8,355 bases of DNA. Source: Candidatus Zhuqueibacterota bacterium (lineage in GTDB: Bacteria; SM23-31). A model generated the notes under the pieces. The model was given only the letters and a program-made list of their open reading frames with translations, was not told the DNA's origin and ran no database searches. Position numbers and translations under genes: made by a program. Positions 3,359-7,857 of this stretch are shown here, piece after piece. Each line of letters begins with the position of its first letter. Position 1 is the first letter of the stretch. The stretch spans positions 1 through 8,355 of the forward strand of contig JADFON010000062.1 in NCBI GenBank assembly GCA_022562855.1, in the 5' to 3' direction.

Positions 3359-4039
3359 TTACTCTACCCGGCTGGCGGAAACGAGGAGTATAAGGGTCTT
3401 TCCGGAACCTTCGTGCCTTACTGCGGTAAATAATTGTAATTGGTTTTCAGGCATTTCGACTGACGACACATAAACAGGTCTCATAATTACGCCGGTTATC
3501 TGCCGTATAGACTCACTGAGAGCAAAGGTCCTGAACCTGACAAGCGGAGAATCAGACCTGATATAATCCATATCAAAGGAGACGTTGAACTGCCCCTCCG
3601 CAAGATCGAAAGTCGTTGCGAGTTTCTCTTCTGTCCGCAGATACGCTTTGTCCAGTTCTTCATATTTGGTAAACGAAAAGAGCGGGTCAAGCAGTTCATG
3701 GATAAGAACGCTGTCGGGTGAACTCACTGCTTTGTCATCGTTCGAACCAAGCAGAAGATAGATATTGACAAGGAACTGCTGGGCAGGTTGATCGTAGTAA
3801 AAAAACAAGCTGTCGATTTCGGCAAGATTAGCAGGATTATCACGAACGACCATCAGGTTTAAGCCTACGGATATCTCCAATGCGCCCCTGTTCGAAAGAA
3901 TCGCCCGTACGAGAGGCTCAAACTCCGTTACCGTTTTATAGGAAACGCGGTACGTTTTTGAAACCGCCTGTTGTGCAAAGAGAGAGGAATTCGTAAAAAC
4001 CAAAAGAACGACAACTGTTGCGATTGAAAATCTCTTCAT
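3359..4039 (-). CDS. Exported protein with a secretin N1-like domain
   Basis: The 226-residue product begins with a clear Sec signal peptide: basic MKR, a hydrophobic core to about residue 16, and a likely cleavage after SLFA (residue 22). Residues about 30-95 resemble the short secretin N-terminal (N1, KH-like) fold: a helix placing LVRAIL, then SNRGALEISVGLNLMVVRDN, where strand-turn-strand ends in the V-R-D-x-P-x-N-L signature, followed by AEIDSLFFYYDQPAQQFLV. The later part (about 100-226) has alternating strands and ends in TLILLVSASRVE. No secretin pore domain is present, so it is not a complete GspD or PilQ. It probably works in the periplasm, perhaps as an accessory of a secretion or pilus system, but no such genes are nearby. 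It is convergent with lpxK and divergent from the desulfurase gene. Function unknown; secretion and the N1-like region are the supported parts. Confidence 0.65.
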   Translation of the reverse strand: MKRFSIATVVVLLVFTNSSLFAQQAVSKTYRVSYKTVTEFEPLVRAILSNRGALEISVGLNLMVVRDNPANLAEIDSLFFYYDQPAQQFLVNIYLLLGSNDDKAVSSPDSVLIHELLDPLFSFTKYEELDKAYLRTEEKLATTFDLAEGQFNVSFDMDYIRSDSPLVRFRTFALSESIRQITGVIMRPVYVSSVEMPENQLQLFTAVRHEGSGKTLILLVSASRVE

Positions 4040-4213
4040 AAAAATAGCCCGGTTAATCTATCCTGAGTATCGGCTTTTCTTCCGCAAATATTGAACATTA
4101 CCCACGATTAAAGCGACAATTTCGACTAAAATATCTTGATTTTTTCAACCATTTTCAAGGGAAATTTGTATAACCGGTTGTGTGACGCCGGACTACAGGT
4201 AGTAATAATATCC

Positions 4214-4242
4214 TTGCTTATTTGTGAGGGCTATGTTATATT
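4214..4242 (+). promoter_or_regulatory. Candidate sigma70-type promoter for the cysteine desulfurase
   Basis: TTGCTT (4214-4219) and TATATT (4237-4242) are spaced by 17 bp and lie 37 bp before the ATG at 4279. The match is plausible, and this is the intergenic region between divergent genes. Confidence 0.4.
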
Positions 4243-4278
4243 TTAAGCAGTAAATAATGCCCATTTCAGGAATTCTAC

Positions 4279-5436
4279 ATGCAGAGAATTTATCTCGATT
4301 ACAGTGCGACAACCCCGGTGGATAAACGGGTTCTTAATGCAATGATGCCTTATTTCCGTGAAAAATTCGGAAATGCTTCGAGCATTCACGAGACCGGGCG
4401 GGATGCCAAGGAAGCGCTGGAAAATGCGCGCGAGCAAATCGCACGGATAATCAGGGCGGCGCCTTCGGAGATATTTTTCACCGGCGGCGGCACAGAATCG
4501 GACAACTGGGCACTTACCGGGTATTGCCTGAATAACAAATCAAAAGGTAACCGTATCGTAACGGTCAATACAGAACATCATGCCGTCCTCAATACCTGCA
4601 AATTTCTCGAATCACAGGGGTTTGAAGTTACCTATTTGCCGGTTGAACCGGATGGCACGATCGATTGTAACAAGCTGAACGAGGCAATTACTTCTGAAAC
4701 CCTTATTGTCTCCATAATGCACATCAATAACGAGATAGGCACCATCCACGATATATCCCGGATAGGTGAGATTACGAAGGAAAAAGGTGTCGTTTTCCAC
4801 AGCGATGCGGTCCAGTCGTTCGGGAAAATCCCCATAGACGTAAGCGCCACACCTGTCGATATGCTTTCTATTTCCGCTCACAAAATTTACGGTCCAAAGG
4901 GTATCGGGGCGTTGTATATACGAAAAGGCACGAATACGGGAAAGTTCATGCACGGCGGCAGCCATGAACGGAATCAAAGAAGCGGTACGGAGAACGTAGC
5001 GGCAGCGGTTGGCTTCGGTGCGGCGGCTGAAATCTGTAAAACTGAAATGGAACAGGAAAGCAAATTCCTCTTGGAACTTCGGAGCTATTTCCTTGAAAAG
5101 CTCAAGAAGAAAATTCCGGAGACCCGTCTCAACGGCGTTGAGGAATCCCGGCTGCCGGGAAATTTAAACGTATCGTTCAAAGATGCTGACGGAGAATCGG
5201 TGCTCTTGAGCCTCGATCTGCATGGCATTTCGGCTTCGTCGGGCGCTGCGTGTGAATCGGGCAGTATCGAGCAGTCCCATGTAATCGAGGCTTTGAACCA
5301 GCCCCCCGAGTACAGCCAATCTTCCATCAGGTTTACGCTTGGAAGATGGACAACCCGTTCCGAGATAGACACTACAGTATCCGTTCTTGTCGATATAGTT
5401 GAGCGCGTCCGCAGCTTGGAAGAAGATTTTGCATAA
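4279..5436 (+). CDS. iscS: Cysteine desulfurase (IscS/NifS family)
   Basis: This 385-residue PLP enzyme removes sulfur from L-cysteine as a persulfide on its catalytic Cys and yields alanine. Seen in the sequence: the N-terminal LDYSATTPVD, GGGTESDNWAL (69-79), TEHHAVL with the PLP-stacking His101, HINNEIG (Asn151), SDAVQSFGK (Asp176), SAHKIYGPKG with the Schiff-base Lys202, the SSGAACESGS loop with catalytic Cys325, and Arg351 for the substrate carboxylate. The catalytic Cys lies in a long mobile loop, as in group I enzymes. The start is well supported by AGGA (4268-4271) 7 nt before ATG. With mnmA next and no iscU, its likely partner is MnmA in tRNA thiolation, as with Bacillus YrvO, although Fe-S cluster supply is possible too. 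The symbol iscS is therefore a family label, not proof of an ISC role. Confidence 0.93.
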   Translation: MQRIYLDYSATTPVDKRVLNAMMPYFREKFGNASSIHETGRDAKEALENAREQIARIIRAAPSEIFFTGGGTESDNWALTGYCLNNKSKGNRIVTVNTEHHAVLNTCKFLESQGFEVTYLPVEPDGTIDCNKLNEAITSETLIVSIMHINNEIGTIHDISRIGEITKEKGVVFHSDAVQSFGKIPIDVSATPVDMLSISAHKIYGPKGIGALYIRKGTNTGKFMHGGSHERNQRSGTENVAAAVGFGAAAEICKTEMEQESKFLLELRSYFLEKLKKKIPETRLNGVEESRLPGNLNVSFKDADGESVLLSLDLHGISASSGAACESGSIEQSHVIEALNQPPEYSQSSIRFTLGRWTTRSEIDTTVSVLVDIVERVRSLEEDFA

Positions 5437-5461
5437 GTGGTTTGTCTGTCATAATTATAAA

Positions 5462-5485
5462 GTGGGACAGACATTCTTGTCTGTC
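5462..5485 (+). repeat. REP-like element 1 (GACAGACA class)
   Basis: GTGG foot (5462-5465), then GACAGACA (5466-5473), loop TTCT, and TGTCTGTC (5478-5485): perfect 8-bp arms. With element 2 it forms an inverted pair matching at 21 of 25 positions (5461-5485 against the reverse complement of 5529-5553). Confidence 0.7.
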
Positions 5486-5528
5486 AATTTATTGGTCAAA
5501 TATATCTGAATAATAATTTTTTGAAGGT

Positions 5529-5552
5529 AACAGACAGGAATGTCTGTTCTAC
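5529..5552 (-). repeat. REP-like element 2 (GACAGACA class, inverted)
   Basis: Read on the minus strand: GTAG foot, then AACAGACA, loop TTCC and TGTCTGTT, with perfect 8-bp arms. It is the inverted partner of element 1 with a 43-bp spacer between the hairpins, so GTAG feet lie at the outer ends, a REPIN-like layout. Confidence 0.7.
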
Positions 5553-5573
5553 TCATTACTTGTAGTTTTGTGA

Positions 5574-5595
5574 GCGCCACCCACGTGGCGGCTAC
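5574..5595 (-). repeat. REP-like element 3 (CGCCAC class, inverted)
   Basis: Read on the minus strand: GTAG foot, C, then CGCCAC, loop GTGG, GTGGCG. It matches element 6 at 20 of 22 positions in inverse orientation, and forms a tail-to-tail pair with element 4 through GCGGCTAC (5588-5595) and GTAGCCGC (5616-5623). Confidence 0.7.
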
Positions 5596-5615
5596 ATCTA
5601 TTATTTTTTGCTTTT

Positions 5616-5638
5616 GTAGCCGCAAACTTTAGTTTGCG
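5616..5638 (+). repeat. REP-like element 4 (CGCAAACT class)
   Basis: GTAG foot (5616-5619), C, then CGCAAACT (5621-5628), TT, AGTTTGCG (5631-5638): perfect 8-bp arms. The foot and first bases (TTGTAGCCGC) are identical to element 6, but the arms are unrelated. Confidence 0.7.
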
Positions 5639-5666
5639 TAAAAAGAATTACTGATGTTCTGTATGT

Positions 5667-5685
5667 CCACATGAATTCAATGTGG
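5667..5685. repeat. Short hairpin CCACAT/ATGTGG
   Basis: CCACAT (5667-5672) pairs with ATGTGG (5680-5685) around a 7-nt loop containing GAATTC. It lacks a GTAG foot and may be part of the larger hairpin beginning at 5684. Confidence 0.45.
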
Positions 5686-5734
5686 TGTCAGGACTTCCCC
5701 GTAGGGGCGACAATTTGTCGCAGTCCTTGACACC
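5684..5734. repeat. Large hairpin enclosing REP-like element 5
   Basis: GGTGTCAGGACT (5684-5695) pairs with AGTCCTTGACACC (5722-5734) with one bulged T. The 26-nt interior holds CCCC-GTA-GGGG and the GCGACAA hairpin of element 5. The result is a strong cruciform-prone structure. Confidence 0.65.
5701..5721 (+). repeat. REP-like element 5 (GCGACAA class)
   Basis: GTAG foot (5701-5704), GG, then GCGACAA (5707-5713), T, TTGTCGC (5715-5721): 7-bp arms around a single base. The GTAGGGGCG beginning resembles elements 7 and 8. Confidence 0.65.
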
Positions 5735-5755
5735 GATCATAAAAAAACATTGCTT

Positions 5756-5777
5756 GTAGCCGCCACGTTGGTGGTGC
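5756..5777 (+). repeat. REP-like element 6 (CGCCAC class)
   Basis: GTAG foot (5756-5759), C, then CGCCAC (5761-5766), loop GTTG, GTGGTG (5771-5776) with one G-T wobble. It is the inverted counterpart of element 3. Confidence 0.7.
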
Positions 5778-5831: not shown

Positions 5832-6941
5832 ATGAATACTAAAAATAAAAAAACAGTCCTTGTAGCGATGAGCGGCGGTGTTGACAGTTCCGTCACCGCT
5901 GCCTTACTTAAGGAGCAGGGCTATTCCGTTATCGGGATCACCATGCGGCTGTCGGATGAGGAGGAATCGATGTCGAATGTTCTTCCCGACCGACCTTGCT
6001 GCTCGATAGAGATGACCTCGAGAGCGAGAAGGGTGTGCGACGTCCTCGGCGTTGCCCACTACGTAGTCGACTTTCGTGAAGTGTTTCAAAAACAGGTAAA
6101 GGATAATTTTTTTGAGCAGTATATCACCGGAACGACGCCAAACCCGTGTGTACGATGCAACACCTATATAAAATGGAAACCGTTAGTGCGGAAGAAAAAC
6201 GCACTCGGCGCCGATTACATTGCCACCGGTCATTATGCGCGGTCTGTTTTGAATGATGATACGGGAAAATTTGAACTTCGCAGGGGGCTTGACCACTGGA
6301 AAGACCAAACGTATTTCCTGTGGGGTCTTTCGGAAGAGCAGTTGAGTTATACGTTGTTTCCCCTGGGGGATATTACAAAAAAAGAAGTGCGCAGTTTGGC
6401 AAAGATGTATAATCTTCCTACGTGGAACGCCCCCGAAAGCCAGGAAATTTGCTTTATTCCCGATAACAATTACCGCCGGTATGTCGAGGAGCGTCTTAAG
6501 GAGCAGGGACTCCCTGCGTCTGTCGGGGAGATACAGGATAGAGATGGAAATGTTCTCGGCAGTCATCCCGGGTATCACAATTTTACTATCGGTCAGCGCA
6601 AAGGGCTTGGAATAGCGCTTGGCGAAGCGGCTTACGTAACGGAAATCGACACCGAAGAGAATACTCTTGTCGTAGGAAACGTAGAAGACTTGATGTCGGA
6701 CAGCCTACAGGCGGAATCCGTTTGTTGGGTCGATTCGGCGCCGTCGGGGGACGATGTAAACGCAACTATCAAGATACGATACAGGGATCCCGGTTCCGAA
6801 GGGAAACTTTTTCCCGAAGGATCCGGGAAAGTGACCGTCCGGTTTTCAGAGCCGGTGCGTGCCGTGACGCCAGGTCAGTCGGTGGTATTTTATAAAGACG
6901 ACAGGGTTCTCGGCGGAGGAATAATTTCAAAAGGAAAATAG
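5832..6941 (+). CDS. mnmA: tRNA-specific 2-thiouridylase MnmA
   Basis: MnmA (369 residues, normal length) installs the 2-thio group on wobble uridine 34 of Lys, Glu and Gln tRNAs in the cytoplasm, using ATP to adenylate the base and a persulfide sulfur relayed from a cysteine desulfurase. Seen: the PP-loop SGGVDSS (14-20), NPCVRCN with Cys106, KDQTYFLWGL (157-166), ESQEICFIPDN with the second catalytic Cys207, GQRKGLGIA, and a C-terminal beta-barrel ending in VLGGGIISKGK. Both catalytic cysteines are present, so it should be active. A Cys pair at 56-57 is seen in some MnmA subfamilies. The upstream desulfurase is the natural sulfur donor, but a 395-bp repeat cluster separates the two, so mnmA may have its own promoter. 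No Shine-Dalgarno is obvious before the ATG. panB follows after 3 bp. Confidence 0.95.
   Translation: MNTKNKKTVLVAMSGGVDSSVTAALLKEQGYSVIGITMRLSDEEESMSNVLPDRPCCSIEMTSRARRVCDVLGVAHYVVDFREVFQKQVKDNFFEQYITGTTPNPCVRCNTYIKWKPLVRKKNALGADYIATGHYARSVLNDDTGKFELRRGLDHWKDQTYFLWGLSEEQLSYTLFPLGDITKKEVRSLAKMYNLPTWNAPESQEICFIPDNNYRRYVEERLKEQGLPASVGEIQDRDGNVLGSHPGYHNFTIGQRKGLGIALGEAAYVTEIDTEENTLVVGNVEDLMSDSLQAESVCWVDSAPSGDDVNATIKIRYRDPGSEGKLFPEGSGKVTVRFSEPVRAVTPGQSVVFYKDDRVLGGGIISKGK
6931..6935 (+). promoter_or_regulatory. Ribosome binding site for panB inside the mnmA 3' end
   Basis: AAGGA lies 9 nt before the ATG at 6945 and within the last codons of mnmA. It supports that start and translation of panB from the mnmA transcript. 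Confidence 0.55.
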
Positions 6942-7829: not shown

Positions 7830-7857
7830 GTAAGGGCGGTTCGCGAACCGCCCCTAC
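7830..7857 (-). repeat. REP-like element 7 (perfect 20-bp palindrome)
   Basis: GGGCGGTTCG (7834-7843) and CGAACCGCCC (7844-7853) form a perfect palindrome with no spacer. The flanks are GTAA on the left and CTAC on the right, so the minus strand reads GTAG plus hairpin. No T-run follows on either strand, which argues against a classic terminator for panB. Confidence 0.7.

Follow-up and report, generated by a model that had tools for sequence, protein, structure and literature searches.

Hairpins of several REP families share one intergenic gap in a Candidatus Zhuqueibacterota genome

Six hairpins with a common GTAG foot and different arms had been predicted in a single intergenic gap of a Candidatus Zhuqueibacterota genome, which raises the question of whether several REP families met at this locus or one recognition system tolerates exchanged arms. 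The window, that is, the whole stretch of DNA analysed, is contig C68 (8355 bp) of a MAG of 2.51 Mb in 491 contigs that is 79.6% complete. The gap covers 395 bp between the end of an open frame of 385 aa (4279-5436, + strand), which we take to be a cysteine desulfurase of the NifS/IscS type, and the start of one of 369 aa (5832-6941, + strand), presumably mnmA (tRNA 2-thiouridylase); both names come from knowledge of the sequences, without a library search. Its six elements comprise two of class A (arms GACAGACA), two of class B (arms CGCCAC), one of class C (arms CGCAAACT) and one further palindrome, E5. As set out below, the gap is very probably a mixed REP cluster, or hybrid BIME, seeded by several RAYT lineages.

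The first four elements have the predicted structure, a palindrome of 6-8 bp that follows the foot either directly or after one C. E1 (class A, 5462-5485, + strand) carries the foot GTGG at 5462-5465 and the hairpin GACAGACATTCTTGTCTGTC, with an 8-bp stem and a 4-nt loop (fold z -4.4, folded as DNA), and E2 (class A, 5529-5552, - strand) carries GTAG at 5552-5549 and the hairpin AACAGACATTCCTGTCTGTT (fold z -4.8). The first stem pair is A-T in E2 versus G-C in E1, a compensated change, and the two form a head-to-head dimer with the feet outside, the REPIN/BIME layout. In E3 (class B, 5575-5595, - strand), GTAG at 5595-5592 and one C precede the hairpin CGCCACGTGGGTGGCG (fold z -2.3), and in E4 (class C, 5616-5638, + strand), GTAG at 5616-5619 and one C precede CGCAAACTTTAGTTTGCG (fold z -4.0). 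E6 (5756-5776, + strand; GTAG at 5756-5759, one C, hairpin CGCCACGTTGGTGGTG) belongs to class B, whose pattern E3 fits with one mismatch, but its hairpin is weak by itself, with one G-T pair and a fold z of -0.84.

Counted strictly, as a GT[AG]G foot plus a Watson-Crick stem score of at least 6, the gap holds 4 footed hairpins; 1000 dinucleotide shuffles gave 0.03-0.1 on average and never more than 2. Across 645 kb of this genome sampled by contig (the element patterns themselves were searched genome-wide), GTAG precedes a hairpin in 17 of its 1887 occurrences (9.0 per 1000) and ranks first of the 256 tetramers; the runner-up, TAGG (5.3 per 1000), partly overlaps it. A chance origin of the footed hairpins is thus excluded, both in the gap and genome-wide.

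Copy counts in the source genome, which the original prediction had proposed as a check, showed the elements to be repeated. Class A occurs in at least 18 places with up to 2 mismatches, whereas the reversed pattern gave 4 matches even at 3 mismatches; its feet are mostly GTAG or GTGG, with a few GTAA or TTAG, and its first stem pair varies in compensation between A-T, G-C and C-G. Class B is a low-copy family with three places in this genome, and a scan of viral contigs for it returned 14 candidate stretches. Copies of the class C family, GTAGNCGCA-NN-CTTYAG-NN-TGCG, number 4 in this genome, 15 in the relative G001, 44 in G068 and 29 in G069; the reversed control gave none. Although this pattern leaves the two dinucleotides free, they are complementary in 133 of the 135 listed copies (a table transcribed by hand), which contain seven kinds of dinucleotide pair and up to five kinds per genome. 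Class C is therefore a case of arm exchange within one family, with foot, stem base and loop fixed. A looser pattern, GTAGCCGC...GCGG, was dropped, as it was swamped by coding sequence and its control scored as high or higher. In G069, class C family members also recur in head-to-head pairs about 32 bp apart (for example, C8:3359 + and 3391 -), whose halves have different inner arms (AGGC/GCCT and AACC/GGTT), that is, REPIN-like units with unequal arms. As is typical of GTAG REPs, a GTAG/GTGG tetramer lies 5' of the palindrome in E1, E2, E3, E4 and E6, classes A, B and the class C family are multicopy with a conserved foot, and the stem is kept by compensatory change at the first pair of class A and in class C.

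The MAG contains three Y1 genes, RAYT1 (contig C119), RAYT2 (C347) and RAYT3 (C53). All three exceed the cut-off of PF01797 (Y1_Tnp); for the REP-associated tyrosine transposase model NF047646 (cut-off 80), RAYT1 (110.5) and RAYT2 (121.2) lie above and RAYT3 (59) below, and none reaches the cut-off of 55 for the IS200/IS605 model NF033573 (35.2, 28.5 and 20.7). RAYT2 is surrounded by GTAG hairpins of its own (GTAG-GCGGGGTCGTCCCTGACCCCGC and an arm variant). Within this MAG, at 79.6% completeness and 491 contigs, the search turned up no RAYT with class A, B or C on its flanks. Class A does lie on both sides of a RAYT in two other genomes, the Ignavibacteriae MAG L320 and the same-family relative G002 (L216). 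In L320, the RAYT spans 3793-4248, and elements of class A, or close variants of it, lie at 3736, 3783, 4264 and 4316; in G002, the RAYT is split into two frames. These two RAYTs are 52% identical and reciprocal best matches in the set compared, and are ~30% identical to RAYT1-3, bar one short stretch of 40%. The expectation that RAYT genes would be flanked by matching REPs was thus borne out for class A and, as described next, for the E5 palindrome; for classes B and C, such a RAYT was not found. With multicopy elements, conserved feet and three RAYT-type genes in the same MAG, together with class A around RAYTs in two other genomes and the E5 palindrome around RAYT1, the proposed REP/RAYT identity is supported.

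E5 turned out to be built differently from the GTAG-footed hairpin that had been predicted. The element, GTGG-TGTCAGGACT...AGTCCTTGACA (5682-5732, + strand, fold z -6.15), contains a 47-nt palindrome at 5686-5732 with arms GTCAGGACT…AGTCCTTGAC, whose loop holds two nested hairpins, CCC(CGTA)GGG at 5697-5706 and GCGACAATTTGTCGC at 5707-5721. The GTAG at 5701-5704 falls within the first of these mini-hairpins; in the sister copy on contig C119, the corresponding letters are GAAG. E5's own foot, if any, is the degenerate GTGG at 5682-5685 just outside the palindrome, the GG of which also pairs. The supposed GCGACAA arm class is likewise a part of this nested palindrome and does not represent a GTAG-footed element of its own. 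On contig C119, the palindrome flanks RAYT1 on both sides in inverted orientation (L010, ~1045-1098 and 1690-1720, around the frame 1107-1658), in the nested form on one side, where GAAG replaces GTAG and the inner stem (GCGGC...GCCGC) is compensated, and in the un-nested form GCGTCAGGACTTCAGTCCTTGACGC on the other. As both forms flank RAYT1, E5 is a copy of this gene's terminal repeat. A RAYT-like gene of 286 aa on contig C8 of G001 has an E5-type palindrome ~620 bp away and was left out of the cognates. E5 was also considered as a CGTC REP, which has an unpaired CGTC/TGTC foot and then a stem of 8-9 bp starting with A-T, and was rejected: the TGTC/CGTC of E5 and its relatives pairs with GACA/GACG.

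How E5 acquired its nested form is a narrower question, to which two answers were weighed: insertion of a GTAG-GGGC-type REP into the loop of a RAYT1-type palindrome, or an inherent variant of the palindrome forming a three-way junction. An insertion is plausible, although we lean slightly against it. The un-nested palindrome exists, with 7 matches of its core in G001 and one copy beside RAYT1, and the additional 24 nt of E5 resemble GTAGGGGC REPs such as E7 (see below); against this, the C119 copy reads GAAG where the foot would be, its inner stem is exchanged yet compensated, and the insert does not have the closing CC of GGGC REPs.

These assignments bear on whether a single arm-tolerant RAYT could have made all six elements, the classes being sub-forms of one family. 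Within families, such tolerance is seen: on contig C268 of the relative G004, one RAYT lies among hairpins with three different inner-arm sets that share GTAG-GGGC...GCCC, and the inner arms of class C vary freely, in compensation. Across the gap, however, neither a stem base nor a loop is common to class A, class C and the E5 palindrome, and the RAYTs with class A and with the E5 palindrome on their flanks are different proteins (that of L320 and RAYT1, 27% identical), which makes a single enzyme for the whole gap improbable. Each of the two explanations originally offered therefore holds in part: several REP families meet at one locus, and exchanged arms are tolerated within families, as for the inner arms of class C and of the GGGC type.

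To the latter type belongs a seventh element, E7, which the original prediction did not include and which sits further along the window, in another intergenic gap (7834-7857, - strand; foot GTAG at 7857-7854, hairpin GGGCGGTTCGCGAACCGCCC). It has a second copy in this genome on contig C54 (L095:4149 -), and its arms are nearly matched beside the RAYT of G004 contig C268. In the set compared, RAYT3 is closest to this C268 RAYT and to a second RAYT of G004 (~33% identity each), both with GTAG-GGGC-type flanks. Because its nearest relatives have such flanks, RAYT3 may be considered a candidate partner of E7. The RAYT3 frame (L003/L012, 174-641 -) also contains GTAGGGGCAGGTTC and GACGGGTTTGGAACCCGCCCC, as if a REP-like sequence lay inside the gene itself.

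Alternatively, the hairpins could be regulatory or terminator structures of the desulfurase-mnmA pair, kept for expression. In favour of this, a gene lies upstream of the elements, E1 is followed by a weak T-rich tail, and effects of REPs on the ends and the stability of transcripts have been proposed (PMC3733652). Nevertheless, the elements do not qualify as intrinsic terminators, hairpins followed by a T run, as only one site resembled one (E1, with its weak tail), versus 0.4 expected; a search of Rfam matched no family, and elsewhere in the genome these elements stand in unrelated contexts. Orthologs of mnmA were present in six other genomes searched, one match being weak, and a desulfurase ortholog adjoins mnmA in five relatives. 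In these five, the gene order is kept while the gap is 173 bp (G001), 18 bp (G002), about zero (G003), ~145 bp (G004, start codon not located) or 119 bp (G005), and GT[AG]G-footed hairpins are absent from all five; a single GCGG match, in the G005 gap, is an AT-rich palindrome. The elements have therefore accumulated in this lineage, as expected of mobile elements and not of a conserved regulator, and we regard a regulatory origin as highly unlikely. We infer that the desulfurase-mnmA gap is neutral rather than regulatory.

Overall, this suggests a model for the mixed cluster in which hairpins with a 5' GTAG/GTGG foot would, as single strands, be substrates of RAYT (TnpA-REP, HUH-Y1) transposases, and copies would have been seeded into the gap by several RAYT lineages that differ in their hairpin families. 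E1 and E2 represent a class A head-to-head dimer in the layout known as REPIN; E4 comes from a family with co-changing inner stem pairs and fixed foot, stem base and loop; E5 is one of the palindromes that flank RAYT1 of this genome; and E3 and E6 belong to a low-copy family for which no RAYT was located. The substrates that RAYT/TnpA-REP proteins cut are single-stranded REPs, and cleavage in vitro is known only for enzymes of E. coli, Stenotrophomonas and Marinomonas (PMC8266576). By analogy with these, mobilisation would proceed by RAYT cleavage at the foot. For the Stenotrophomonas enzyme, changes in the foot reduce or abolish cleavage and the loop is critical, while changes in the lower stem are tolerated (PMC8266576), rules that would fit the fixed foot and exchangeable stems seen here.

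Class A is spread far beyond this genome. Of 290 genomes searched, 12 contained it together with its foot, G004 with 81 copies, and the reversed control gave zero. A scan of the GTDB species set returned at least 119 stretches; among the matches listed, the record titles name Kapaibacteria, Ignavibacteria, Zixiibacteriota, Chloroflexi, Spirochaetia, Saprospiraceae, Planctomycetota, Neomarinimicrobiota, Lentisphaerae, Verrucomicrobia, Acidobacteria, Nitrospirae, Deltaproteobacteria, WOR-3, Latescibacterota and an Ereboglobus genome. Most of these are MAGs, in which binning errors are possible, and two are single-contig chromosomes (CP126532.1 and CP070742.1). At the listed GTDB loci, 18 of 213 class A hairpins have, within 300 bp, a footed hairpin scored as different; most of these 18 neighbours have clearly different arms and a few are class A variants. 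As class A hairpins elsewhere have such neighbours, this window is not alone in having a mixed cluster. A possible, if rather doubtful, reading is that class A marks a RAYT lineage whose arms and loop (ACAGACATTCNTGTCTGT) stayed near letter-identical across many phyla while the RAYT protein diverged (~50% identity). If true, this would run counter to the idea of a fast turnover of REP arms, and would suggest horizontal spread with strict recognition for class A, beside loose recognition for the GGGC type and class C. Of the findings here, how well class A is conserved between phyla is the only one that might merit further work.

The combination of shared feet and different arms had been thought unusual, but it has already been described (PMC2817692, PMC3733652, PMC3686654). 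The GTAG-tagged REP superfamily comprises 24 families (Di Nocera 2013, PMC3733652), and several GTAG families per genome, GTGG variants and dimers are published (PMC3733652). Our elements share with this superfamily the GTAG/GTGG foot, the 6-9 bp stem, the short loop and the extragenic location, as well as complementary sub-families, several families per genome, head-to-head dimers and groups (PMC3733652); they differ in their host, a poorly sampled lineage. Classes A, B and C are likened to the 24 families by their described features (PMC3733652), and a literature text search for class A strings returned no relevant paper. Hybrid BIMEs of Stenotrophomonas contain REPs of two RAYTs per cluster (Nunvar 2010, PMC2817692), and in the REP 'orthoswitch', REP variants switch under one RAYT (Nunvar 2013, PMC3686654). 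The gap agrees with these in that REPs of different RAYTs are clustered and palindromes are kept by complementary changes, whereas here three or four arm families, including a nested palindrome, occupy 320 bp (PMC2817692, PMC3686654). RAYT1 is reminiscent of TIRYTs, RAYTs with terminal inverted repeats (PMC3733652): palindromic inverted repeats flank it without a clean GTAG foot, and a further copy of its repeat occurs elsewhere, as E5. In contrast to TIRYTs, the foot of its repeat is ambiguous (GTGG/GTTG/GCTG, partly paired); published TIRs carry a GGGGWSAS motif (PMC3733652), and the comparison here is one of repeat layout. Mixed REP clusters, multi-family genomes and arm switching are thus already known, and the gap is a further example, which brings a poorly sampled lineage into RAYT-REP biology. 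It also offers natural material for asking what a RAYT reads in a REP hairpin, since the fixed part differs by lineage: arms and loop in class A, stem base and loop in class C, and foot and stem base only in the GGGC type. For annotators, it is a warning that clusters of GTAG hairpins in MAGs can mix several mobile families.

Three further arrangements were observed. In this genome, long-form class A elements (L144 (C256) ~1517 -, L146 (C72) ~196, L147 (C107) ~582 and L149 (C356) ~877 -) consist of the usual hairpin, then a CCCC(N6-7)GGGG mini-hairpin, then a second 3' arm (TCTGTC or degenerate). A similar mini-hairpin is present in E5 and in one class A copy of L320, and the short C-run/G-run hairpin looks like a recurrent insert across different REP families. 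GTGG-CACCCCCAAACNNGTTTGGGGGTG hairpins occur at L015:8401 + and L108:7754 - of this genome, and the same element lies on both sides of a RAYT in G001 (L215); it is a further REP family, the RAYT of which was not found in this MAG. Finally, L206 (G004 C182) carries a long array of GTAG-CCGAGCCTGTCCCCAGGCTCGG hairpins, spaced by 41 bp, on both sides of one RAYT.
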